Source: Kushneria aurantia DSM 21353
GTDB lineage: Bacteria; Pseudomonadota; Gammaproteobacteria; Pseudomonadales; Halomonadaceae
Reading direction: 5' to 3'
Assembly (NCBI RefSeq): GCF_000382245.1
Contig: NZ_KB907867.1
Location: forward strand, 74,625 to 138,624
DNA length: 64,000 nucleotides
The position numbers and the translations under genes are program-made. Shown here in pieces: positions 12,521 to 26,022 of the stretch; position 1 is the stretch's first letter, and the number at the start of each line of letters is the position of its first letter. Under the pieces are notes generated by a model, which saw only the letters and a program-made list of their open reading frames with translations, was not told the DNA's origin and did no database searches.

Positions 12521-13342
12521 CTACCTTCCCTGCGGCACCCACCCCTGCATGTCGCTCATCAGCGCTTCCAGCAGTGGCCGCACCCGGGCCGCGCGCTCCT
12601 CGCGCCAGGGGAAGATGGCATCGCCGGGATAGTCGACGCCGGCTTCGGGCTCTGCCATGTAGGTATGCTGCGAGAGTTCCAGCTGCACGGCGTGGACGTT
12701 GTCGGCGGGGTTGCCGTAGTGGCGGGTCATGTAGCCGCCCTTGAAGCGGCCGTTGAGCACCCAGCTGTAGGTGGATTGGGCGGCGCACAGCGCCTGCAGC
12801 CGTTCGCTCAGCGCCGGGGCGCAGCTGGCGCCCTCGAAGGTGCCAAGGTTGATGTCCGGCAGTGGCCCCTCGAACAGGCGCGGCACCTGCGAGCGGATCG
12901 AGTGGGCGTCGAACAGCAGGGCGTAGCCGAAGCGCGCTTTCAGGCGCTGAAGCTCCGCCGCCAGGGCCTGGTGATAGGGCTGCCAGATCTCCGCCAGCGC
13001 CTGCGTTCGTGCCTGCGGGGCGGGTTCAAGGCCCGGCCGGAAAAGCGGCCGGCCGTCGAAGTCGATCTCGGGAAAGAGCCCGGTGGTGGCGCCGGCATAG
13101 AGCGGGGTGTCATCCGCCGGACGGTTGAGATCGATCACGTAGCGCGAGTAGAGCCCGCGCAGCCGGCTACAGCCCAGCCGCTCGGTGAAGTCGTAGAGTT
13201 CGGGCATGTACCAGTCGGTGTCGGTCAGGGCGTGCGCCTGATCGGTCAGGCCGGCCTCCACTTCCGGCGTCAGCCGCACGCCGGCATGGGGAATGGAGAT
13301 CAGCAGCGGCGTGTCGCCGCGGGTCAGTTCAAAACTCGTCAC
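12521..13342 (-). CDS. hutG: N-formylglutamate amidohydrolase HutG
   Basis: 273 residues, full length. Family segments are [12 protein letters not shown] at the N-terminus, [47 protein letters not shown] (metal-binding Asp-His) and [16 protein letters not shown]. The enzyme converts N-formyl-L-glutamate to glutamate and formate, the last step of the HutF/HutG branch; HutF is present at 24652. Its start overlaps the hutI stop by four bases. Last gene of the minus-strand hutU operon. Confidence 0.95.
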
Positions 13343-14556
13343 AGGGTGATCTCCTTGCCGGCGATAAAGGGGATGGCCGGCAGTTCGCCGCCCAGCCAGT
13401 AGGCAAGTTCCGCCGGGCCGCTGATCGACCAGGCCACCGCGTCGGCGGCCTTGCCCACTTCCAGCGAGCCGTGTGTCTCGTCGATACCCAGCGCACAGGC
13501 GGCGTTGAGGGTAACGCCGGCCAGCGCCTCCTCGGGGGTCAACCGAAACAGCGTACAGGCCAGGTTCATCATAAGACGTAGTGACAGCACCGGCGAGGTG
13601 CCGGGGTTGAGGTCACTGGCCAGCGCCATCGTCACGCCGTGTTGGCGAAAGGCGTCGATGGGGGGAAGCTGCGTCTCGCGCAGGGTCAAAAAGGCGCCGG
13701 GCAGCAGCACCGCCGCGGTGCCGGCCGCCGCCATGGCGCGGGCGTCGTCGTCGCCGGCATATTCAACGTGGTCGGCGGAGAGCGCGCCGAATTCGGCCGC
13801 CAGCCGGCAGCCGCCGAGGTGCGAAAGCTGCTCGGCGTGCAGCTTGAGCGGCAGGCCGAGACGGCGGGCGATCTCGAACACCCGACGCATCTGATCGGGG
13901 CTGAAGGCAATGCCTTCGCAGAAGCCGTCGACCGCATCGACCAGCCCCTCGGCGGCCAGTGCCGGCAGGAGGGTGTCGCAGACATGAGTAATGTAGTCGT
14001 CGCTGCGCTCGGCGTACTCCGGCGGCAGCGCATGGGCCGCCAGGCAGGTGGTATGCACGCTCACCGGCAGGCGTCGGCCCAGCTCGCGGGCCACCTGCAG
14101 CATGCGCCGTTCGCTGTCCAGCTCGAGGCCGTAGCCGGATTTGATCTCCAGCGTGGTGATGCCCTCGCGCAGCAGCACTCGGGCGCGCGCCTCGGCGCTG
14201 GCGTAGAGGCTGTCGAAGTCGGCCTCGCGGGTGGCGCGCACGGTGCCGAGAATACCGCCACCCTGGCGGGCGATGGTCTGATAGTCGACGCCGCCGAGGC
14301 GCTGCTCGAACTCGCCGCTGCGCTCGCCGCCGAAGACCAGGTGGGTATGGCAGTCGATCAGCCCGGGGGTCAGCCAGCGGCCGCCGAGGTCGCGGCGCTC
14401 ATCAATGGTGCCGGTGTCATCCTCGCCGGGAAGATCGGCCTCGGCGCCGATCCAGGCGATACGGCCGTCGCGCACGATCAGCGCTGCGTTGTCGATGATG
14501 GCGTAGCGGCCACCGGCCATGGTGACGGCGTGGCAGTGGTGCCAAAGCGTTGTCAT
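13339..14556 (-). CDS. hutI: Imidazolonepropionase HutI
   Basis: 405 residues. Amidohydrolase metal ligands appear in [12 protein letters not shown], the substrate region in [11 protein letters not shown], and later ligands in [11 protein letters not shown] and [13 protein letters not shown]. It hydrolyses 4-imidazolone-5-propanoate to N-formimino-L-glutamate in the cytoplasm. It overlaps hutG downstream and the MIO-less lyase upstream by four bases each, so the three are one transcript. Its high GC resembles hutG and hutU and contrasts with the lyase. Confidence 0.95.
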
Positions 14557-16148
14557 GGGTCGTAATTCTCCCCTGAATAAGGTGCTTGCAAGGGCCTTTT
14601 CAGCAGCGGACCACTCAACTCGATAGTTACCGCTTCAGGCATTGGAGAACTGCGGAGACGGCGGTAAATAGCTTCGATGTCACCGGACAGCGGACGTTCT
14701 TCATCATAGGCTGCCACGATATCGCGTAGCCAGCGCCATGCCGCTGAGGTCGCTACAGCAAAAGAGGTGTGGGTCAGCAGATCAAAGGCCTGGGCAGCGC
14801 AAAGCCATTCGATGGCAACGATCCGAAAGGCGTTTTCAAGCGCGGTATCCAACTTCAAAGCGGCACTTTCGCCAAGACTGACATGATCCTCCTGCAGGGC
14901 CGAGGTCAGAAAGTTATCCGTGACCACGGGCTGCGAGAGCCGTTTGTTATCCGCAGCCAGAGAAGCGGCCGTATATTGCGCGATCATCATGCCGGATTTC
15001 ATACCGCTGTTAGTGGAAAGAAAGGGCGGCAGACTGCTGCCCGGCCGACGTGCTTCAGGCGTCACCAACCTGTAAATACGCCTCTCCGAAAGCGCCCCCC
15101 ATTCGGCTACCGCCATGGCAAGCTGATCACAGGCAAGCGCTACCGAGGCACCATGGGGGTTGGCCTGGGAAATCACCTGATACCCATCAGCGCTTTCGAT
15201 TACAAGCGGGTTGTCGGTCGCGCTTGCCAGTTCAATGTCGATTCGACGACAGGCATCGGAGAGTTGATCACGACAAGCGCCATGAACCTGGGGGATAGAA
15301 CGCAAGCTCAAGGCATCCTGCAGATGGGTACCCTGGCGCTCGGCCAGCCAGGCACTGCCATGCAATAGTTCGCGCAGGGTGCGGCCGCAAACCTGTACCC
15401 CCGGGTGCGGCTTGAGTGCCAGCACCTCGGCGCCAAAGGCCGCCAGCTGCCCTCCCAACGCCTCGAAACTCATTGCAGCGGCAATATCGGCCCATGCACT
15501 CAATCGATTTGCATCGTCCAGGGCGAGACAGGCCAGCCCGGTCATGGCCGGTGTACCATTTACCAGACTCAGGCCATCCTTGGCGCCCAGCTCAACTGCC
15601 GATTTGTTCAACCGAGTCAGCGCATCTCCGGCAGGCATTGTTTCGCCCTGGTAACGAACGTCACCATGCCCCACCAGCGTCAAACCGATATGGGCCATAT
15701 GGGCCAGATAGCCCACCGAGCCCTGACGGGGCACCACCGGCGTAATACCTGCATTGAGGAAGTCCACCAGACGCTCGACTATTTCAACACTGATCCCCGA
15801 ATAGCCGTGGCTGTAGTTGACTACCGCAGCCACCATAATGGCGCGCACCTGTTCATCACGAAGCTGTTGCCCAACGCAGCAGGCGTGACTCATCAGAGTG
15901 TGCCAGGAAAGCCGGCGAAGCTGGTGAAACTCAAGGCGCACATTGTAAAGCGCGCCCAGCCCGGTATTGATGCCATAGTAAGGTGTATTGCCGTGCGCGA
16001 AGGCGTCCACGGCCGCTCTCGATCGCGTGATACGCTCCCAGCGCTCTTGTGAAATCGCGATTGGCGCCCCTTCACGGGCAATGCGGACTACCTCGCGCCA
16101 ACCGATGACATTTTCACCCAGCTCGACCGCAGCAATAGCAGTACTCAT
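14553..16148 (-). CDS. Histidase-like lyase lacking the MIO-forming Ala-Ser-Gly
   Basis: 531 residues, aligning along the whole histidine/phenylalanine ammonia-lyase fold: YYGINTGLG at 57-65 (catalytic Tyr loop), [21 protein letters not shown], and [11 protein letters not shown]. Where active histidases have [15 protein letters not shown], this protein reads [11 protein letters not shown] (143-153), so the tripeptide that cyclises to the MIO electrophile is absent. The frame is otherwise intact, so this is a subfamily trait, not damage. Ergothionase, which eliminates trimethylamine from ergothioneine, is a MIO-independent relative as I recall. With a BCCT betaine-type carrier directly upstream, elimination from a trimethylated histidine to urocanate or thiourocanate is my preferred hypothesis. 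Canonical hutH is separate, at 23079. Confidence 0.8.
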
Positions 16149-16150
16149 TA

Positions 16151-17737
16151 TCAGAGATACTCCTCTTTCCTGCGCTCGATCAGACCGGAATCAGGCGCTT
16201 TACGGCGCGCCTGAATCATCGCTCTGGCACCACCCAAAACGATCAGTGCGAAAAGAAATATCACCAGAAAACCACCAGCGGCAGCGAGAAACTTGATCCC
16301 ATCAATCCCTTGGGCGCCACCACCGAAGGCCACCATGACCCAAGCGATCACACTGATCGAAAGCCCCCACAGCAACTTCTGCCAAGCGGGCGGCTCATCT
16401 TCTGCCTTGATACCGAGAGTGCAGATCTGGGCAATGGTGGCAGACATCGAATCAGCAGCAGTCGCAAACGATACGATCAGTGCCAGAATGGTAAGAGGCG
16501 TCAGCAGCCAGGCCATGGGTAGATGCTGCAAAAAGGCCCACAAGCCGGCGACAGCACCCTGGTCGGATATGGTGGAGGCAAGATCAAGCGTGCCATCGAT
16601 CTGCCACTTGATAGCGCTGCCGCCCCAGACAGCAAACCAGACAAGACCAAAAATGGCCGGCAGAATCCAGTTGATGAGCAGGAACTGCCGCAGTGTACGC
16701 CCATAGGAAATCCGCGCCAGAAAGAGCCCCATCAGCGGCGCGTAGGCGATCCATATCGACCAGTCGTACATGGTCCACCAGGTCACCAGCGCTTCGCCAC
16801 CAAGCAGATTGGTATCCAGTGACCAGCTGAAAAAATCATTCAGCCAGTAACCGAGGCTGCTCGTAGACAGATTCAGAATATATACCACCGGCCCGATGAT
16901 CAGCAGCAAAACCAAAAGACCGTAATAAATATAGATATTGACGGAGGAGAGATAGCGAATGCCGCGCTTCAATCCCGAGATCGAAGAGATAATAAAGATG
17001 GCGGCGATAATCCCGACCAGTATCAGCCAGAGCAAAGGCCCCTGAGCCAGACCGTATTCGGTCTCGATACCCGAGCCAATCAGTGCGACGCCGGCACCGA
17101 GCGATGAGGCCAGCCCTAACGCAATGGCCAGAACCGATATGATATCAACCAGAGTGCCAACCAGAGGATGGCGATGATAATCGCCAATAACCGGTGACAG
17201 CGCCGAGGCGATGGAAAAGCGGCTACCTTTATTATAGTGAGTGTAAGCGATCATCATGCCGACAATCGAATACATGGCATAGGGAATGAAGGTCCAATTG
17301 TGAAAAGAGCGCGCCAGCGAAAAAACCGCTGATTCAACGCTGCCGGGCTCGAAAGACTGATTGGCGATCTCACCGTAGACATTGCCGACATAAATGATCG
17401 GCTCATTAACCGAATAGGTCACCACACCGGTAGCAATCCCGCCTGTCAGCGCCATGGCAAAGGTCGTGCCGAGTGAAAAACGCGGTCTGGCTTCCGGTCC
17501 CCCAAGGCGTATATCACCTACGCGCGAGAAAAATACAAAGCCGACTACCAGCAGCGCTGCCACCGAAAGAAGTTGATAGAGCCATGCAAAATCTGTTAGT
17601 ACAAAAGAGAACAGGCTTCTGGCGAAACCGACCAGCCCTTCATTATTGACAAGGCCAACAATGGCAGCGAGGGCAATAACGCCGTAAGCCGGGAAAAATA
17701 CGCTCGATCCAAGACGAATATTAGAGTTTCTTGACAT
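16151..17737 (-). CDS. BCCT-family transporter
   Basis: 528 residues from ATG 17737 with AAGGAG upstream. The longer frame to 17950 lies opposite hutU and is rejected. Twelve hydrophobic segments are expected. The family signature region reads MYDWSIWIAYAPLMG then LFLARISYGRTLRQF. Compared with BetP-type carriers (from memory), several Trp of the trimethylammonium cage are changed and an Asp appears, so the substrate is probably not plain glycine betaine. BCCT proteins move quaternary-amine zwitterions across the inner membrane, driven by Na+ or H+. It sits two bases before the MIO-less lyase gene, and both have lower GC than the flanking hut genes. Uptake of a histidine betaine is inferred. 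Confidence 0.88.
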   Translation of the reverse strand: MSRNSNIRLGSSVFFPAYGVIALAAIVGLVNNEGLVGFARSLFSFVLTDFAWLYQLLSVAALLVVGFVFFSRVGDIRLGGPEARPRFSLGTTFAMALTGGIATGVVTYSVNEPIIYVGNVYGEIANQSFEPGSVESAVFSLARSFHNWTFIPYAMYSIVGMMIAYTHYNKGSRFSIASALSPVIGDYHRHPLVGTLVDIISVLAIALGLASSLGAGVALIGSGIETEYGLAQGPLLWLILVGIIAAIFIISSISGLKRGIRYLSSVNIYIYYGLLVLLLIIGPVVYILNLSTSSLGYWLNDFFSWSLDTNLLGGEALVTWWTMYDWSIWIAYAPLMGLFLARISYGRTLRQFLLINWILPAIFGLVWFAVWGGSAIKWQIDGTLDLASTISDQGAVAGLWAFLQHLPMAWLLTPLTILALIVSFATAADSMSATIAQICTLGIKAEDEPPAWQKLLWGLSISVIAWVMVAFGGGAQGIDGIKFLAAAGGFLVIFLFALIVLGGARAMIQARRKAPDSGLIERRKEEYL

Positions 17738-17799
17738 TTTTATACTCCTTGCTTTTGTTATCAGTTTGGATAGGCCTACCGCATGCAGTGGCAGTGGTA

Positions 17800-19467
17800 C
17801 TAACGCACCATCGGCAGATCCAGCCCGTACGCTCTGGCGCAGTCGATGGCGATGTCGTAGCCGGCGTCGGCGTGACGCATGACGCCGGAAGCCGGGTCGT
17901 TGTGCAGCACCCGGGCGATACGGCGGTCGGCCGCCTCGCTGCCGTCGCACACGATCACCAGCCCGGCGTGCTGCGAAAAGCCCATGCCGACGCCGCCGCC
18001 GTGGTGCAGCGAGACCCAGCTGGCGCCGCTGGCGGTGCTCAGCAGGGCGTTGAGCAGCGGCCAGTCGGAGACCGCATCGGAGCCATCCTGCATGCCCTCG
18101 GTCTCGCGGTTGGGACTGGCCACCGAGCCGGCGTCGAGGTGGTCGCGGCCGATCACCACCGGCGCCGTGAGTTCGCCGCTGCGCACCATGGCGTTGAACG
18201 CCAGCCCCAGCTTCTCGCGCTGCCCCAGGCCCACCCAGCAGATACGCGCCGGCAGGCCCTGGAAGCTGATGCGCTCGCGCGCCATATCGAGCCAGCGGTG
18301 CAGGTGCTCGTCGTCGGCGATCAGCTCCTTCACTTTGGCGTCGGTTTTATAGATATCCTCCGGGTCGCCGGAGAGCGCCACCCAGCGGAAGGGGCCGATG
18401 CCGCGACAGAACAGCGGGCGGATATAGGCGGGCACGAAACCGGGAAAGTCGAAGGCGTTGTCGACCCCTGTCTCCTGCGCCATCTGGCGAATGTTGTTGC
18501 CGTAGTCGAAGGTGGGAATGCCCTGCTCGGCGAAGGCCAGCATGGCGCGCACGTGCTCGGCCATCGAGGCTTTGGCGGCGGCGATCACCGCCTGCGGCTC
18601 GCGCTTGCCGCGTTCGCGGTAGTCGTCCCACTGCCAGCCGGCGGGCAGGTAGCCGTTGAGCGGGTCGTGGGCGCTGGTCTGGTCGGTAACCATGTCCGGG
18701 CGCACGCCGCGCCGCACCAGTTCGGGCAATATCTCGGCGGCGTTGCCGTGCAGCGCGATGGAGACCGCCCGGCCCTCGCCGGTATAGCGCTCGAGGCGCG
18801 CCAGGGCGTCGTCGAGGTCATCGGCCTGCTCGTCGACGTAGCGGGTGCGCAGGCGAAAATCGATGCGCGACTGCTGACACTCGATATTGAGCGAGCAGGC
18901 GCCGGCCAGCGTCGCCGCCAGCGGCTGGGCGCCGCCCATGCCACCCAGCCCGGCGGTCAGGATCCAGCGCCCGGCGAGGTTGCCGTCGTAGTGCTGGCGT
19001 CCGGCCTCGACGAAGGTCTCGAAGGTGCCCTGCACGATGCCCTGCGAGCCGATGTAGATCCACGAGCCGGCAGTCATCTGGCCGTACATCATCAGGCCTT
19101 TGGCATCCAGCTCGTTGAAGTGCGCCCAGTCGGCCCAGTGCGGCACCAGGTTGGAATTGGCAATGAGAACGCGCGGCGCGTCGGCGTGGGTCTTGAACAC
19201 CCCCACCGGCTTGCCCGACTGCACCAGCAGGGTTTCGTCGTCGCCGAGACGCTTCAGGGTCTCGACGATGCGATCGAAGCACGCCCAGTCACGCGCTGCA
19301 CGGCCGATACCGCCATAGACCACCAGCTCCTGCGGGTTCTCGGCCACGTCCGGGTCGAGGTTGTTCATCAGCATGCGCAGCGGCGCTTCGGTCAGCCAGC
19401 TGCGCGCAGAGAGCTGCGTGCCGCGCGGGGCGCGGATTTCGGTGTCGCGAAAACGAGGGTCGGACAT
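17800..19467 (-). CDS. hutU: Urocanate hydratase HutU
   Basis: 555 residues, full length. The N-terminus [60 protein letters not shown] (with the conserved Cys) and [16 protein letters not shown] are all standard. It converts urocanate to imidazolonepropionate with NAD+ as electrophile. ATG 19467 has AAGGAGCG upstream, and a HutC-type palindrome lies 36 bases further out. First gene of the operon hutU-BCCT-lyase-hutI-hutG. Its GC is very high. Confidence 0.97.
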
Positions 19468-19502
19468 GATCGCTCCTTGAGGGGTTAGGCGTCGATATAC
19501 TT

Positions 19503-19512
19503 TGTATATACA
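19503..19512. promoter_or_regulatory. HutC operator-like palindrome upstream of hutU
   Basis: TGTATATACA is a perfect 10-base palindrome inside CTTTGTATATACATTACG. HutC repressors of Pseudomonas bind sites of the CTTGTATATACAAG type, relieved by urocanate. It lies 36 bases upstream of the hutU ATG in otherwise GC-rich DNA. Confidence 0.75.
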
Positions 19513-19569
19513 TTACGTCGATCCCGCCGCGCAGGCAATCGCCCCCCGGGAACTCATGTCGCCACGGGG

Positions 19570-19736
19570 TTAAGGAAACGCTGCATAAATGCCTGCGCTA
19601 GCGAATCGCTGCGTTGCGTGGTACTGGCGCGCCAGCCCGGTCGAACACTCGCCTAACCCCATGTTATGTCTCGTGTTCTGTGTTCCATGCGCCTTGCGCT
19701 TCATCTCGCTCGTCGATTTATTCAGCATTTCCCTAA
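19570..19736. mobile_element. MITE-like element with terminal inverted repeats
   Basis: TTAAGGAAACGCTGCATAAAT at 19570 and the reverse complement of 19716-19736 (TTAGGGAAATGCTGAATAAAT) match at 18 of 21 positions. They enclose about 125 bases with no gene. The right end supplies the stop codon of the ABC permease (19733). A related right-end segment recurs at 55184-55242. Size and structure fit a miniature inverted-repeat element or the collapsed ends of an IS. The family is not identified. Confidence 0.6.
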
Positions 19737-20389
19737 TGGCGCAGCGCATAGCGGCGCTCGACGACGTCCAGCAGCAGCGTCACCAGGCCTACCAGCACCA
19801 CATAGATCACCGCCGCGACGAGAAAGATCTCGAAATAGCGGAAAGTATCCGCGCCGATCATCTGGGCCTGCCCCATCAGTTCGGGCACGCTGATGGCGAA
19901 GGCCACCGAGGTGTACTTGAGCTCGATGACCACCTCATTGGCCCACTGCGGCAGGGCGATACGCCAGGCCTGAGGCAGCACCACATGGCGGATCGCCCGG
20001 CGCCGCGACAGTCCGATCGCGCGGGCGGCCTGCATCTGCCCGGGGCGTACGGCGCGTATACCGGCGCGGAAATACTCCGCCTGATAGGCCGCCGTGTTGA
20101 GGCCGATGGCGGTGATGGCAGCGGTCAGCGGCGACAGCACGATGCCCACCTGAGGCAGCCCCTGGTAGACGATGAACATCTGCACCAGCAGCGGTGTGCC
20201 GCGGATCAGCTCGATATAGCCGGTCGCCAGCCGGCGCCACGGGGTGGCGCCGTAGACGCGGGTAACCGCCAGCCCGGTGCCGGCCAGGGAGCCAAACAGC
20301 ATGGCGACAACCCAGATGATCAGCGTATAGCCGGTCCCCTTCAAAAGCGCCGGCAGATGGGGCCAGGCAAACGCCAGCCAGTCATTCAT
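19733..20389 (-). CDS. Polar amino-acid ABC transporter permease (HisM/GlnP type)
   Basis: 218 residues with about five hydrophobic segments. The cytoplasmic EAA loop reads ARAIGLSRRRAIRHVVLPQA, the contact with the ATPase. YIELIRGTPLLVQMFIVYQG is the His/Glu/Gln/Arg/opine permease hallmark. It starts four bases inside the ATPase gene (20386-20389). Its stop lies within the terminal repeat of the MITE-like element, so the original C-terminus may have been altered slightly. Last gene of the four-gene importer. Confidence 0.92.
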   Translation of the reverse strand: MNDWLAFAWPHLPALLKGTGYTLIIWVVAMLFGSLAGTGLAVTRVYGATPWRRLATGYIELIRGTPLLVQMFIVYQGLPQVGIVLSPLTAAITAIGLNTAAYQAEYFRAGIRAVRPGQMQAARAIGLSRRRAIRHVVLPQAWRIALPQWANEVVIELKYTSVAFAISVPELMGQAQMIGADTFRYFEIFLVAAVIYVVLVGLVTLLLDVVERRYALRH

Positions 20390-21165
20390 GCGCCACCGCC
20401 CTCCTCGCTCGCTTCACCGATCAGCGCCGCGGCAATGCCGTCGATAAACTGCCGGGTGCGCCGCTGCTGCGGGTGTTGAAAGATCTGCTCGGCGCTGCCC
20501 TCCTCGACCACGCGCCCCTCGGCCATGAACAGCACATCGTTGGCCACGGCCTCGATAAAGGCCATTTCATGCGACACGATAATCATCGTCATGCCCTCGG
20601 CGACCAGCGAGCGCATGACCCGCAGCACGCCGCCCACCGACTCGGGGTCGAGCGCCGAGGTGGGCTCGTCGAACAGCATCAGTTCGGGCTCCATCGCCAG
20701 CGCGCGGGCGATCGATACGCGCTGCTGCTGACCGCCGGAGAGCTCGGCCGGATACTGCTGCCACTTGCTCTCCAGCCCCACCCGGGCCAGCTCGCGATGC
20801 ACGATATGGTCGGCCTCGTCGCGGCCCAGCCGGCGCACCCGGCGCAGCCCGAGGCGAATGTTGTCGGCCACGCTGAGGTGAGTGAACAGATTGAAATCCT
20901 GAAAGACGAAACCGATGCGCGAACGCAGTCGGTCCAGGTTGGCCCTGGCGGCGGTCAGCTCGGTGTCTTCCAGCCAGATCCGGCCGCTGTCGATCGGCTC
21001 CAGGCCGTTGAGGCATCGAATCAGCGTCGACTTGCCGGCCCCGGAAGGACCGATAATGCCCTTCACCTCGCCGGCGGCCACCTCGAGCGACACATCGTTG
21101 AGCACCGGCGTGTCGCCGAAGTATTTGGTCAGGTGCGATACGCGCATCAGATTGCGAGAACTCAT
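20386..21165 (-). CDS. Polar amino-acid ABC transporter ATPase (HisP/GlnQ type)
   Basis: 259 residues. Walker A is GPSGAGKST at about residues 39-47, the signature LSGGQQQRV at about 150, Walker B LMLFDEPTSALDP, and the switch His lies in IIVSHEMAF. The length and the ECLNGLEPIDSGRI-like segment after Walker A fit the polar amino-acid family. It couples ATP hydrolysis to import through the two permeases at 19733 and 21175. ATG 21165 lies 9 bases after the upstream permease. Confidence 0.94.
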   Translation of the reverse strand: MSSRNLMRVSHLTKYFGDTPVLNDVSLEVAAGEVKGIIGPSGAGKSTLIRCLNGLEPIDSGRIWLEDTELTAARANLDRLRSRIGFVFQDFNLFTHLSVADNIRLGLRRVRRLGRDEADHIVHRELARVGLESKWQQYPAELSGGQQQRVSIARALAMEPELMLFDEPTSALDPESVGGVLRVMRSLVAEGMTMIIVSHEMAFIEAVANDVLFMAEGRVVEEGSAEQIFQHPQQRRTRQFIDGIAAALIGEASEEGGGA

Positions 21166-21174
21166 GGACAGGAC

Positions 21175-21843
21175 TCAGTGAACAAGGCCGGGAACACGCA
21201 GGCGGTGGTCGAGGCGCGCCAGCGCCCGGGTCGCCGCCAGCGAAAGAAGCAGATAGACCAGCGCCGCGGCGGAGTAGACCGCCAGCGTATGGCCGTAGCT
21301 GGCCGAGACGATGTAGTTGGCCTGGCGCATCAGTTCGACGACGCCGATGGTGTAGGCCAGCGAGGTGTCCTTGAGTTCGGACAGCGCTTCGTTGGTCCAG
21401 GGGCCGATCGCCTGACGCAGCGCCTGCGGCAGCACCACATGGCGGATCGCGGCGAGGCGCGTCAGCCCGATGGCGCGCGCGGCCGCCATCTGCCCCGAGG
21501 GCACCGAAGCGAGCGCGCCGCGCACGATCTGCGACTGATAGGCCGCCGAGCGCAGGCCGAGCGCCAGTGACGCCGCCGCGAAGGAGGAGATGTCGTAGAA
21601 CGTCGAAATGCCGTAATAGAACAGAAACAGCAGCACCACGGCGGGAATGGCGCGCAGCAGCCGCTCGATCAGAGTCGCCAGCAGGCGCACGGCCATGCCG
21701 CCGTAACGCTGCATCAGCCCCAGCGTCACACCCACCAGCAGCCCTATCGCCAGCAGCGCCAGGGCCAGCGCCAGGGTGATCGCCGCACCCTCGGCCAGAT
21801 AGGGAATATTTTCCCGGATGGTTTGATAGATCATCGCCGACAC
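21175..21843 (-). CDS. Polar amino-acid ABC transporter permease (HisQ type)
   Basis: 222 residues with several membrane segments. The coupling loop is ARAIGLTRLAAIRHVVLPQA, almost the same as in the partner permease at 19733, so the two form a heterodimer. LIERLLRAIPAVVLLFLFYY is the typical region before the loop. It follows the binding-protein gene by 95 bases and precedes the ATPase. Confidence 0.92.
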   Translation of the reverse strand: MSAMIYQTIRENIPYLAEGAAITLALALALLAIGLLVGVTLGLMQRYGGMAVRLLATLIERLLRAIPAVVLLFLFYYGISTFYDISSFAAASLALGLRSAAYQSQIVRGALASVPSGQMAAARAIGLTRLAAIRHVVLPQALRQAIGPWTNEALSELKDTSLAYTIGVVELMRQANYIVSASYGHTLAVYSAAALVYLLLSLAATRALARLDHRLRVPGLVH

Positions 21844-21938
21844 AGGAGAGACTTATCGCCCCGGCACGAGGTTAGCGCCGGGGCAAAGGATGGAGATCGG
21901 GCCGGTATCGAAGCACTCATTCGCCCGGCAGCGGCGAA

Positions 21939-22775
21939 TTACTGCGCTATACCGGGAATCGGCGAGGCGTAGGTATCGATGCCTTCGGGCAGGCTGACCG
22001 GCACCGACATGACCTTCGCATCCGGCATGTACTTGTGGACGATATCGGCCCACTCGCCGGACTTGTAGATGGCCACCTCACCGGCGTTGAGCTTTTCCAG
22101 CAGCGCCGTATTGCCCTTCTTGACCGCCAGCGCGTAGACCTCCGGCGGCTGGGGCGTGATCTGCCCGGCAATCTTCACGCTGTCCGGGTTGTCGGCGACG
22201 AACTGCTGCGCCGTATCGTCGTCCAGGAAGTAGGCATCGAGGCGTCCGAGCGTCAGATCCTGTAGCGCCGTGGTGCCCTGTTCATAAGTCCTGATATCGA
22301 TATCACGGCCTTCATCGTTGACCAGCTTCTGCAGGTATTCATAGTTGGTGGTACCGGTCTGCACCCCGACCGTGTGGCCGTCGCCGAGCGCCGTGGTGCC
22401 GTCGAGATTCGAGTCGGCGGGCACCAGCACATCGAGATTGATCTGCCACCAGGGCACGGTGAAATCGATCTGCTCGGCCCGTTTCGGCGTTACTGTCAGT
22501 CCGGTCACCAGAATATCGATCTTGTCGGCCTTGAGTGCCGGAATCAGCGACGAAAACGCCATCGAGCGAAATTCGACGTCAAAGCCCTGCTGCCTGGCGA
22601 TGGCACGCACCGCGTCGGGGGCGATGCCCACATACTGGCCGTGATCGACCGACGCCCAGGGCGGGAATGACGGCTCGATACCCGCCACATAGGTTTCGGC
22701 CATACTGGCAGAAGAGAACGACAGCATGGCGGCGGCAATAACAGCGGCATGTCCGAAACGCATGGCTAACCTCAC
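21939..22775 (-). CDS. Periplasmic amino-acid-binding protein of the ABC importer
   Basis: 278 residues. A Sec signal peptide (MRLAMRFGHAAVIAAAMLSF, cleavage near ASMA-ET) is followed by the SBP_bac_3 fold: VAGIEPSFPPWASVDHG, GIAPDAVRAIARQQGF, DILVTGLTVTPKRAEQIDF and GVQTGTTNYEYLQ. It binds a polar amino acid or related ligand in the periplasm. First gene of the importer, divergent from hutH with HutC-like sites between, which points to histidine, urocanate or a derivative. The ligand itself cannot be read from sequence. Confidence 0.93.
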   Translation of the reverse strand: MRLAMRFGHAAVIAAAMLSFSSASMAETYVAGIEPSFPPWASVDHGQYVGIAPDAVRAIARQQGFDVEFRSMAFSSLIPALKADKIDILVTGLTVTPKRAEQIDFTVPWWQINLDVLVPADSNLDGTTALGDGHTVGVQTGTTNYEYLQKLVNDEGRDIDIRTYEQGTTALQDLTLGRLDAYFLDDDTAQQFVADNPDSVKIAGQITPQPPEVYALAVKKGNTALLEKLNAGEVAIYKSGEWADIVHKYMPDAKVMSVPVSLPEGIDTYASPIPGIAQ

Positions 22776-23078
22776 TTTTTTATGGATTGTTACAGTCAGT
22801 TCCGGGCTGCGGGGCTCGGGCGAGTTCTCGCAGCCGATCAGGCAACGGTATAGACATTAAGATAATCTACAGTTTCAGGCAATGCCCTTTTGGGCTCGCC
22901 GCTGCCGGCCGTGACTCGGCGTCGACCGTAACGGGCATGGCAGAGCTCAGTCAGTGGTGCCAAAGGGCGTCTTGTCGCGCGGGGAGTTGAACCTGGCGTA
23001 TCATCGCGGTAATTGTATAGACATAGTCGAGGCGGCGCCGATTCGCTCCGCCCGCCTTTCATCACAGCGGAGCCGAAC
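22776..23078. promoter_or_regulatory. Divergent hut control region with two HutC-like sites
   Basis: The intergenic region between the importer and hutH holds GGTATAGACA at 22847-22856 and TGTATAGACA at 23014-23023. They share TATAGACAT/A and resemble the palindrome TGTATATACA upstream of hutU. One site faces each transcription unit. The rest is ordinary GC-rich spacer. Confidence 0.6.
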
Positions 23079-24629
23079 ATGACCCCCATTGTACTGGTGC
23101 CGGGCGCTACCCGCCTGGCGCAGCTGGCCGATATTTACTGGCACGAAACGCCGGCAAGACTCGACGACGGCTGCCTGCCGGCGATCGATGACGCCGCCGC
23201 CCGCGTGGCCGAGGCCGCCCGTGGCAGCGCGGCGGTGTACGGCGTCAATACCGGTTTCGGCAAGCTGGCCAGCGTCACGATTGCCGCAGCCGACACCGCT
23301 ACCCTGCAGCGCAACCTGATTCTCAGCCACTGCTGTGGCGTGGGCGAGACGATCTCGCCGCGCATGACGCGGCTGATCATGACCCTCAAGCTGCTCTCCT
23401 TCGGCCGCGGCGCCTCCGGCGTGCGCCGCGAGCTGGTAGCGCTGCTGGAGGCCATGCTGGCGCACGGCGTCATGCCGGAGATTCCCGCCCGGGGCTCAGT
23501 GGGTGCCTCCGGCGACCTGGCGCCGCTGGCGCACATGACAGCAGTGATGATCGGCGAGGGGATGGCGCGCTACGCCGGCGAGACGCTTCCCGGCAGCGAG
23601 GCGCTGGCACGCGCCGGTCTCGAGCCGGTCACGCTGGGCGCCAAGGAGGGGCTGGCCTGTATCAACGGCACCCAGTTCAGCACCGCCTTCGCCCTCGCCG
23701 GCCTGTTCGAGGGCTGGCGCGCGGCGCATAACGCGCTGATCATCTCGGCACTCTCCACCGATGCCATCATGGGCTCCACCGCGCCGCTGCAGGCGGAGAT
23801 TCACAGCCTGCGCGGCCACCGCGGCCAGTGCGAGGCGGCGGCGGTGATGCGCGAGGCGCTGGCCGGCTCGGTCATTCGCGATAGCCATATCGAGGGCGAT
23901 CAGCGCGTGCAGGACCCCTACTGCATCCGCTGCCAGCCGCAGGTCACCGGCGCGGCAATGGATATCCTGCGCCAGGCGGCCACCACCCTGGAGGTCGAGG
24001 CCAACGCCGCCACCGACAACCCGCTGGTGCTGAGCGAGACCGGGCGGATCGTCTCCGGCGGCAATTTTCACGCCGAACCGGTCGGTTTCGCCGCCGATAC
24101 CATCGCGCTGGCGCTGGCTGAAATCGGCGCCATCGCCCAGCGCCGCGTGGCGCTGATGGTCGACCCCAACCTCAACTGCGATCTGCCGCCCTTTCTGACC
24201 CCCAACCCGGGGCTCAACTCGGGGCTGATGATCGCCGAGGTCACTACCGCCGCGCTGATGAGCGAGAACAAACAGCTCGCCAATCCCTGCGTCACCGACA
24301 GCACGCCGACCTCCGCCAACCAGGAGGATCACGTCTCGATGGCCGCCCACGGCGCGCGGCGGCTGCTCACCATGGCCGACAATCTACAGCATATTCTCGG
24401 CATCGAGCTGCTGTGCGCCGCCCAGGGGGTCGAGTTCCGCGCCCCGCTGACCACCAGCACACCGCTTCAGCGGGTCATCACGCGGCTGCGCGAGGAGATC
24501 GCGCCGCTCAGGGAAGACCGCTACCTGGCCCCCGAACTGGAACGCGCCGCCCTGCTGGTGGCCAGCGGCGCGGTGATCGACGCCGCCGCGCTCGATCTGC
24601 CCACGCTCGAGCGTCACCCCACGCCATGA
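23079..24629 (+). CDS. hutH: Histidine ammonia-lyase HutH
   Basis: 516 residues from ATG 23079 (GCGGAG upstream); the open frame extends further but without similarity. It has the MIO-forming Ala-Ser-Gly at 143-145 in [15 protein letters not shown], the Tyr loop [11 protein letters not shown], and the C-terminal [14 protein letters not shown]. It converts L-histidine to trans-urocanate and ammonia. It is followed 22 bases later by hutF, so degradation runs hutH-hutF here and hutU-hutI-hutG in the other operon. It is distinct from the MIO-less paralogue at 14553. Confidence 0.97.
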
Positions 24630-24651
24630 TCGCGAAACGAGGAGAGCGTCC

Positions 24652-26022
24652 ATGAGCCAGGATTTTTTCGCCTCGCGCGCCCTGCTGCCCGAGGGGTGGC
24701 GCCGCGACGTGCGTCTGAGCGTCGATGATGCCGGCATGATCGCAGGCGTTACCCCCGACGCCCACGCCGCTGGCGCCGAGCGGCTGCACGGCCCGCTGCT
24801 GCCGGGCATGCCCAACCTGCACTCCCATGCGTTTCAGCGCGCCATGGCGGGGCTGGCCGAGATCGGCTCAGGCGGTACGGACAGTTTCTGGAGCTGGCGC
24901 GAGCAGATGTATGCGCTGGTCGACCGGCTGACGCCGGAGCAGGTCGCGGTGATCGCCCGGGTGCTGCAGGTCGAGCTGCTCAAGGGCGGCTATACCCAGC
25001 TGAGCGAGTTCCACTACCTGCATCACGACCCGCAGGGGCAGCCCTACGCCGACCCGGCGGCGATGTCGCAGGCGGTGCTGGCAGCAGCAGACGCCAGCGG
25101 AATCGCCCTGACGCTGCTGCCGGTACTCTACGCCCACAGCGATTTCGGCGGCCGGCCGCCCGGTCACGGCCAGCGCCGCTTCATACATGAGCCGGAGGCG
25201 TACCTGCGCCTGCTGGCGCAGCTGGCGCCACACTGCGCCGCTCACCCCACCCGGGCGCTGGGCATGGCGTTTCATTCACTGCGCGCGGTCACTCCGGCGG
25301 AGATGGCGGCGGTGCTCGCCGCCGACCCCGTCGGCCCGCGCCATATCCATGTCGCCGAGCAGCAGCGCGAGGTCGAGGCGTGCCTCGCCTGGAGCGGCAA
25401 GCGCCCAGTGCAGTGGTTGCTGGATAACGTCGAGGTGGACGAGCGCTGGTGCCTGATTCACGCCACCCATCTGGATAACGACGAAGTGCGGCGGCTGGCG
25501 GCCAGCGGCGCGGTGGTCGGCCTCTGCCCCGTCACCGAAGCCAACCTGGGCGACGGCCTGTTCGCCGCCGAGGCCTATGCCGCCGCCGGTGGCCGCTGGG
25601 GGATCGGCTCCGACAGCCAGGTGGCGGTATCGGCCGCCGAGGAGCTGCGCCTGCTGGAGTACGGCCAGCGCCTCACCACCCAGCGTCGCACTGTGCTGCA
25701 GGATGGCGCGAGACGCGGCGTTGGCGACTGGCTCTACCAGAGCGCGCTGGCCGGCGGTGCTCAGGCCTCGGGCCAGCCGATCGGCGCGCTGGCAGTGGGT
25801 CGGCGAGCGGACTGGGTGGTACTGGACGGCAACAACCCCTGGCTGGCCGGCAGCGACGACGCACACCTGCTGGGCCGCTGGCTGTTCGGCGCCAGCGGCG
25901 CGCAGGTGCGCGATGTGATGGTGGCCGGCCGCTGGCAGGTCGAGAACGGCCACCACCGCCTCGATGAACAAAACCACCGGGAGTTGGGCCAGCTGCTCAA
26001 GGCGCTTTCAAGCAAGGCCTGA
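24652..26022 (+). CDS. hutF: Formimidoylglutamate deiminase HutF
   Basis: 456 residues. Amidohydrolase motifs: LLPGMPNLHSHAFQRAM (the family's HxH with the characteristic LHSHAFQR), FHYLHHDPQG, GPRHIHVAEQQREVE, LIHATHLDNDE and GIGSDSQVAVS. It deiminates N-formimino-L-glutamate to N-formyl-L-glutamate, the substrate of HutG at 12521. This defines the two-step pseudomonad-type branch. ATG 24652 follows GGAGAGCG closely. Confidence 0.95.
   Translation: MSQDFFASRALLPEGWRRDVRLSVDDAGMIAGVTPDAHAAGAERLHGPLLPGMPNLHSHAFQRAMAGLAEIGSGGTDSFWSWREQMYALVDRLTPEQVAVIARVLQVELLKGGYTQLSEFHYLHHDPQGQPYADPAAMSQAVLAAADASGIALTLLPVLYAHSDFGGRPPGHGQRRFIHEPEAYLRLLAQLAPHCAAHPTRALGMAFHSLRAVTPAEMAAVLAADPVGPRHIHVAEQQREVEACLAWSGKRPVQWLLDNVEVDERWCLIHATHLDNDEVRRLAASGAVVGLCPVTEANLGDGLFAAEAYAAAGGRWGIGSDSQVAVSAAEELRLLEYGQRLTTQRRTVLQDGARRGVGDWLYQSALAGGAQASGQPIGALAVGRRADWVVLDGNNPWLAGSDDAHLLGRWLFGASGAQVRDVMVAGRWQVENGHHRLDEQNHRELGQLLKALSSKA

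Follow-up and report, generated by a model that had tools for sequence, protein, structure and literature searches.

We analysed a 64,000-nucleotide stretch of the Kushneria aurantia DSM 21353 genome (contig NZ_KB907867.1, positions 74,625 to 138,624; hereafter the window), in which a histidase-like lyase gene adjoins a gene for a BCCT-family carrier inside a histidine utilization (hut) operon. The lyase lacks the residues for the 4-methylideneimidazole-5-one (MIO) electrophile of histidases. Both the anatomy of the locus and its comparison with relatives favour the view that a hercynine importer and a hercynine lyase feed the Hut pathway. From sequence we infer substrate and activity as follows: after import, hercynine (N-alpha-trimethylhistidine) probably loses its trimethylamine by an MIO-free cleavage, and the urocanate so formed passes to the Hut enzymes.

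Active site of the lyase and its operon

The lyase is full-length (Pfam Lyase_aromatic, 527 bits). Against the NCBIfam hutH equivalog for histidine ammonia-lyase (EC 4.3.1.3) it scores 508 bits, under the cut-off of 539, whereas the real HutH of the window reaches 669. Where histidase has Ala142-Ser143-Gly144-Asp145 (residue numbers follow Pseudomonas putida histidase unless stated), the lyase exhibits one tyrosine (its Tyr147) and a three-residue gap. Tyr280 is replaced by leucine, Phe329 by proline and Val386 by tyrosine (Tyr392 in the lyase). Tyr53, His83, Asn195, Gln277, Arg283 and Glu414 are retained; among these, Tyr53, His83, Asn195, Arg283 and Glu414 are the histidase residues which we take, in part by assumption, to hold the imidazole and the carboxylate of the substrate. 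The available text of PMC11432326 gives Tyr52, Glu414, Asn194, Gln274 and Arg280 as corresponding residues of GkHAL.

The lyase belongs to a distinct clade, also present in Pseudomonas, Burkholderia, Erwinia and rhizobia. The Ala-Ser-Gly triad is absent from all 86 clade members tabulated, and the six retained residues occur in 86 of 86, a count biased for two of them by the patterns that found 80 of the loci (LVNGTP.., TS.LQEDH), which contain the Asn195 and Glu414 equivalents. Position 280 is leucine in 85 members and methionine in one, position 329 proline in 82 and alanine in four, and position 386 tyrosine throughout. True histidases in the same table keep Ala-Ser-Gly, Tyr280 and Phe329 (9/9). 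A second table of 25 members, picked by a GY motif that all 25 possess, agrees with the first in every case (MIO residues gone, pocket kept); it comprises L002-L004, L013-L021 and L133-L140, from whole-protein searches, and L120-L124, also among the 86, and the two tables partly overlap, L002, L003 and L017 being probably the same genomes as L030, L104 and L095. A plain histidase with a sequencing error is ruled out by a change common to all 86 members.

The histidase mutants Y280F, D145A, F329A and F329G appear in PDB entry titles. As far as the available text of PMC11432326 goes, changing Phe329 of histidase to alanine causes a 100- to 2200-fold loss, and F329G forms no MIO. With the MIO residues gone and the positions of these mutants (145, 280 and 329) changed, MIO should therefore not form in the lyase, while the imidazole and carboxylate site should remain. 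The preliminary description of this DNA had noticed the missing Ala-Ser-Gly, a trait that we confirm and extend to all clade members tabulated; it had called the enzyme otherwise intact, which holds for the imidazole and carboxylate residues and fails at the positions of Asp145, Tyr280 and Phe329.

The carrier matches Pfam BCCT with 393 bits. Its nearest solved relatives are BetP (betaine), then a trimethylamine transporter and choline carriers. Alignment with BetP reveals an aromatic box, Trp/Tyr/Tyr in transmembrane segment 4 and Trp..Trp in segment 8, at what we take to be the box-forming positions of BetP. The features of the locus are listed below, with their basis in brackets (ORF, open reading frame).

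14553..16148, minus strand: MIO-less histidase-like lyase, 531 aa, proposed hercynine trimethylamine-lyase (ORF, profiles, sites, AlphaFold (AF2) model)
15690..15722, minus strand: lyase residues 143-153 at the histidase MIO site, Tyr147 in place of Ala-Ser-Gly-Asp (sequence, site table)
16151..17737, minus strand: BCCT carrier, proposed hercynine importer (Pfam BCCT and NCBIfam profiles, BetP alignment)
17800..19467, minus strand: hutU, urocanate hydratase (993 bits, cut-off 375)
13339..14556, minus strand: hutI, imidazolonepropionase (NCBIfam profile)
12521..13342, minus strand: hutG, N-formylglutamate deformylase (NCBIfam profile)
23013..24629 (from first possible start), plus strand: hutH, ordinary histidase with GASGD (ORF, profile, sites)
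24652..26022, plus strand: hutF, formimidoylglutamate deiminase (NCBIfam profile)
19733..22775, minus strand: polar amino-acid ABC importer, permease, ATPase, permease and binding protein (ORFs and profiles)

The minus-strand genes form a tightly packed operon (19467-12521) in the order hutU-BCCT-lyase-hutI-hutG. The BCCT gene starts with an ATG at 17737 (read by eye), 62 bases from hutU, and its stop ends at 16151, two bases from the lyase gene; four-base overlaps join the lyase to hutI (14553-14556) and hutI to hutG (13339-13342). ORFs, gene joints and Pfam profiles thus bear out the earlier statement that an MIO-less lyase and a betaine-type carrier lie within a hut operon. The normal hutH is 7 kb away and, with hutF, on the plus strand (23013-26022). 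The polar amino-acid ABC genes, the second permease of which (21175-21843) is named by position, sit between the lyase operon and hutH, and are probably outside the importer-lyase pair.

Pairing with importers and the proposed route

We compared the gene upstream of the lyase in 85 loci (numbered with the prefix L), namely the best 80 of 562 relatives (mostly Pseudomonas) and five plasmid loci (L120-L124) chosen for spread among the 60 listed out of 854 records that matched. This gene is the nearest one, within 400 bases, of a 20-protein reference set, genes outside the set being invisible. An importer gene is directly upstream in 83 of the 85 loci: an OpuA/ProU-type ABC ATPase in 58, a BCCT carrier in 14 and an amino-acid ABC ATPase in 11. 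The betaine-type classes (OpuA-type ABC and BCCT) account for 72 loci. A quick tree built from 86 lyases requires at least four switches between importer classes. Evenly drawn genomes give the same picture, with an importer upstream in 16 of 17 loci (those hits of the order and phylum searches that lie outside Halomonadaceae and gave a locus; three phylum-search hits gave none and are left out). In L067, L069, L097, L105 and L109 the fetched stretch around the lyase and its OpuA-type ABC contains no further hut gene of the reference set. The OpuA-type genes of the PA7 locus match ProV (over the cut-off) and OpuAC, and the amino-acid ABC ATPase of Rhizobium etli is nearest to the histidine ATPase HisP (336 bits, below the cut-off of 466). 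The importers are thus betaine-type plus histidine-like, and their common ground is the betaine of histidine, hercynine. On this sequence evidence, the pairing points to a histidine-like betaine as the substrate.

We infer the substrate and its cleavage, the specificity of transport and the fate of trimethylamine along the following lines. The lyase and the importer would make up a module of two parts that handles the betaine of histidine. Hercynine would enter through the BCCT carrier, and the lyase would grip its imidazole and carboxylate as histidase does those of histidine. The MIO electrophile would be dispensable, trimethylamine being a good leaving group in its own right; a base would abstract the beta proton and trimethylamine would depart, leaving trans-urocanate. 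HutU, HutI, HutF and HutG would convert the urocanate to glutamate and formate, and the trimethylamine would probably be excreted. Hercynine is among the soil quaternary ammonium compounds named in the available text of PMC8550315. The ergothioneine importer EgtU has an affinity for hercynine about 10,000-fold below that for ergothioneine (available text of PMC9732360); since EgtU discriminates the two betaines, their separate import is plausible. In the K. aurantia genome the models for EgtD and EgtB have no match at E 1e-10, a search of modest power (controls matched in 1 and 4 of 14 genomes, none over the cut-off); hercynine would therefore be scavenged.

The gene is not confined to this locus; it belongs to a wider family, by gene order the "second histidase" beside hutXWV of pseudomonads. 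The PA7 locus (L058) exhibits an OpuA-type ABC followed by the MIO-less lyase, i.e. a hutXWV-type module, and the same pair occurs on pSymB of Sinorhizobium meliloti Ak57 (L122), where it is presumably the hutXWV-hutH2 operon. At E 1e-100 a search of 390 genomes of the order finds the lyase gene in 12, and a search of 398 genomes across the phylum finds it in 23; 12 of these 23 are the order carriers, the window's genome included. It is absent from all nine other genomes of the genus, as is urocanase at E 1e-100. The hut region (12521-26022) may not be common to the genus, suggesting that it was acquired by transfer or retained here alone. In genome G421 (L135/L141) the clade lyase adjoins, by eye, a LysR-like gene and phytanoyl-CoA-dioxygenase-like and TauD-like frames.

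Alternative explanations

The enzyme might act on a different derivative of histidine that carries a good leaving group, such as dimethylhistidine or a ring-methylated betaine, to yield urocanate or methylurocanate. The pocket residues specify no more than an imidazole and a carboxylate, and pairing with amino-acid ABC importers suits less charged substrates. Against this, two of the three importer classes, covering the 72 loci above, are betaine types, and the operon contains ordinary hutU and hutI. We consider such a substrate unlikely.

Also rather unlikely is an ergothionase arrived at by another route, with thiourocanate and trimethylamine as the products of ergothioneine cleavage. The MIO-less member of the fold already known is ergothionase, and a betaine-type carrier adjoins the lyase here. 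The AlphaFold model of the lyase (pLDDT, the predicted local distance difference test, 88.9), the fold comparison and the sites reveal an MIO-less histidase fold like that of ergothionase; leucine at position 280 is common to the clade and to three ergothionase-type proteins, themselves without intact Ala-Ser-Gly. However, position 386 is lysine in all three (residue 383 in chain numbering) and tyrosine in 86 of 86 clade members, so the conserved lysine of ergothionase is missing from the lyase, and Asn195, kept in the clade, is absent from the three. By sequence, ergothionase ranks 17th among 39 PDB matches to the lyase. In a 37-row tree, a check put forward with the preliminary description, the lyase clade (23 rows, support 100/99) is distinct from nine histidases, three outlying Ala-Ser-Gly-bearing lyases and two ergothionase-type proteins; the latter form a separate group (100/99), on long branches that make its placement unsure with only two such rows. 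The genome exhibits a single HutU match, an ordinary urocanase, and no thiourocanate hydratase over the NCBIfam cut-off (the sole match is hutU, 681 of 930 bits; 14 control genomes have none either), in line with the earlier remark that thiourocanate-specific genes are lacking. The Salinicola ergothionase-type protein has no relative in the genome at E 1e-90. In Salinicola corii both lyase types are neighbours, and OpuA-like ABC genes come after the ergothionase-type one. The tree, the tabulated sites and the gene content of the genome therefore argue against counting the lyase among ergothionases. The ergothioneine option is weaker than first put, the lyase being separate from the two ergothionase-type proteins and without the lysine of the three, and the earlier preference for hercynine gains support from the importer pairing (83/85), the at least four class changes, the single HutU and the lack of a thiourocanate hydratase.

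The second lyase of S. corii (L119:5513-7051, minus strand; motif GSLGAADLAQ) is MIO-less, of the ergothionase type (best PDB match ergothionase, 268 bits), and lies beside the hut operon with the clade lyase; its OpuA-like ABC genes (two permeases and an ATPase, not profiled) are 33-46% identical to those of PA7. The fetched stretches of two other Salinicola loci (L031, L104) contain no such second lyase. A further ergothionase-type lyase, annotated hutH, occurs on a plasmid of Rhizobium sp. SU303 (L132:6938-8443) near genes for a CoA-transferase, a short-chain dehydrogenase/reductase (SDR), a MaoC hydratase and an OsmF-like betaine-binding protein; it might cleave another aromatic betaine, the acrylate then following a CoA route.

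Several observations weigh against a hercynine route. Two of the 85 loci have no importer upstream (L124, with hutF there, and L093, at a contig edge), and L135, one of the 17, has a LysR-like gene by eye in place of a recognised importer. None of 56 hutH genes in the loci has any of the three importer classes directly upstream, but this control is weak, 45 of them following the MIO-less gene itself and leaving 11. One of the three classes is an amino-acid ABC, and the R. etli binding protein of that type scores best with a Lys/Arg/Orn model (205 bits, cut-off 256; HisJ 131). The lyase model is too close to both histidases (Z 42-43) and ergothionase (Z 41) for structure to decide. The flavin-containing (FMO-type) trimethylamine monooxygenase family PF00743 has no match in the genome at E 1e-5 (control matched in 4 of 14 genomes; other trimethylamine routes not searched). 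The S. meliloti HutXWV importer reportedly also moved histidine, proline and proline betaine, and hutH2 or hutX mutants are said to have grown about 30% less well when histidine was the nitrogen source. HutXWV has a part in histidine uptake (available text of PMC8871633). In the available text of PMC12772324, hut deletions grow poorly on histidine, PA5093 is assigned to hutG and hutI is numbered PA5092. By the gene order of PA7, the number PA5093 could belong to the MIO-less lyase; the hutG label in that text may be a slip. In PA7 hutI stands between the MIO-less lyase and hutG.

The uptake role of HutXWV and the reported hutH2 growth effect, together with the location in hut operons and the kept histidine pocket, would also fit a second histidase working without MIO. 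This is very unlikely: ammonia is a poor leaving group without MIO, a normal hutH is in the fetched stretch of 55 of 80 loci (none seen in 25), some importer-lyase pairs occur there without any other reference hut gene (e.g. L067, L105), and hutH1 of Pseudomonas fluorescens SBW25 is dispensable on histidine (available text of PMC8871633). Least likely of all is a paralogue that has lost catalysis and serves in regulation or structure. This would suit the changes at Tyr280, Phe329 and Asp145 besides the MIO residues; against it stand the pocket residues, which do not vary among the 86 members, and an importer pairing that persists through at least four changes of importer class.

Relation to known hut genes and lyases

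Our literature search for hercynine catabolism to urocanate found none, mostly among papers outside subscription, and we do not claim that it is not in print; among the listed matches on urocanate, histidase and hutH, none contains hercynine. The product name "histidine ammonia-lyase" is given to all five plasmid copies (L120-L124). We give an even chance to the following propositions taken together: Pseudomonadota possess a widespread unrecognised hercynine route, in which an importer (BCCT, HutXWV-type or amino-acid ABC) and an MIO-free lyase feed the Hut pathway; HutH1 of Pseudomonas and HutH2 of Sinorhizobium are examples of that lyase; the main cargo of HutXWV is hercynine; and MIO was lost apart from ergothionase. 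If true, the annotation of many "histidine ammonia-lyase" genes would be corrected, and the dispensability of SBW25 hutH1 on histidine would be accounted for. There would be a bacterial sink for hercynine, which is a betaine of soils and a precursor of ergothioneine, and a further microbial source of trimethylamine. The lyase would also be a second natural case of an MIO enzyme that lost its cofactor, the substrate bringing its own leaving group.

HutH1 of P. fluorescens SBW25 and HutH2 of S. meliloti, both beside hutXWV, are of the same family by gene order; for SBW25 the link is drawn from gene order in PA7 and S. meliloti Ak57. In the available text of PMC8871633 HutH1 is termed a histidase and HutXWV a histidine importer. 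These systems differ from the K. aurantia locus in their importer, an ABC (hutXWV) instead of a BCCT carrier. The lyase resembles HutH (1b8f, 7tqr and the window's 23013-24629) in fold (Z 42-43, 36% identity), in the imidazole and carboxylate residues and in its hut operon, and differs in lacking the MIO residues and in the altered Tyr280, Phe329 and Asp145. With Treponema denticola ergothionase (6s7j/6s7q) it shares a histidase fold without intact Ala-Ser-Gly and the leucine at 280, and the betaine substrate of that enzyme is for the window lyase a proposed trait. In contrast, ergothionase belongs to another clade with another local deletion (SSIGEGD, against GSVGY-LAH in the lyase), has lysine where the lyase clade has tyrosine and does not keep Asn195; its product is thiourocanate, whereas that proposed for the lyase is urocanate.

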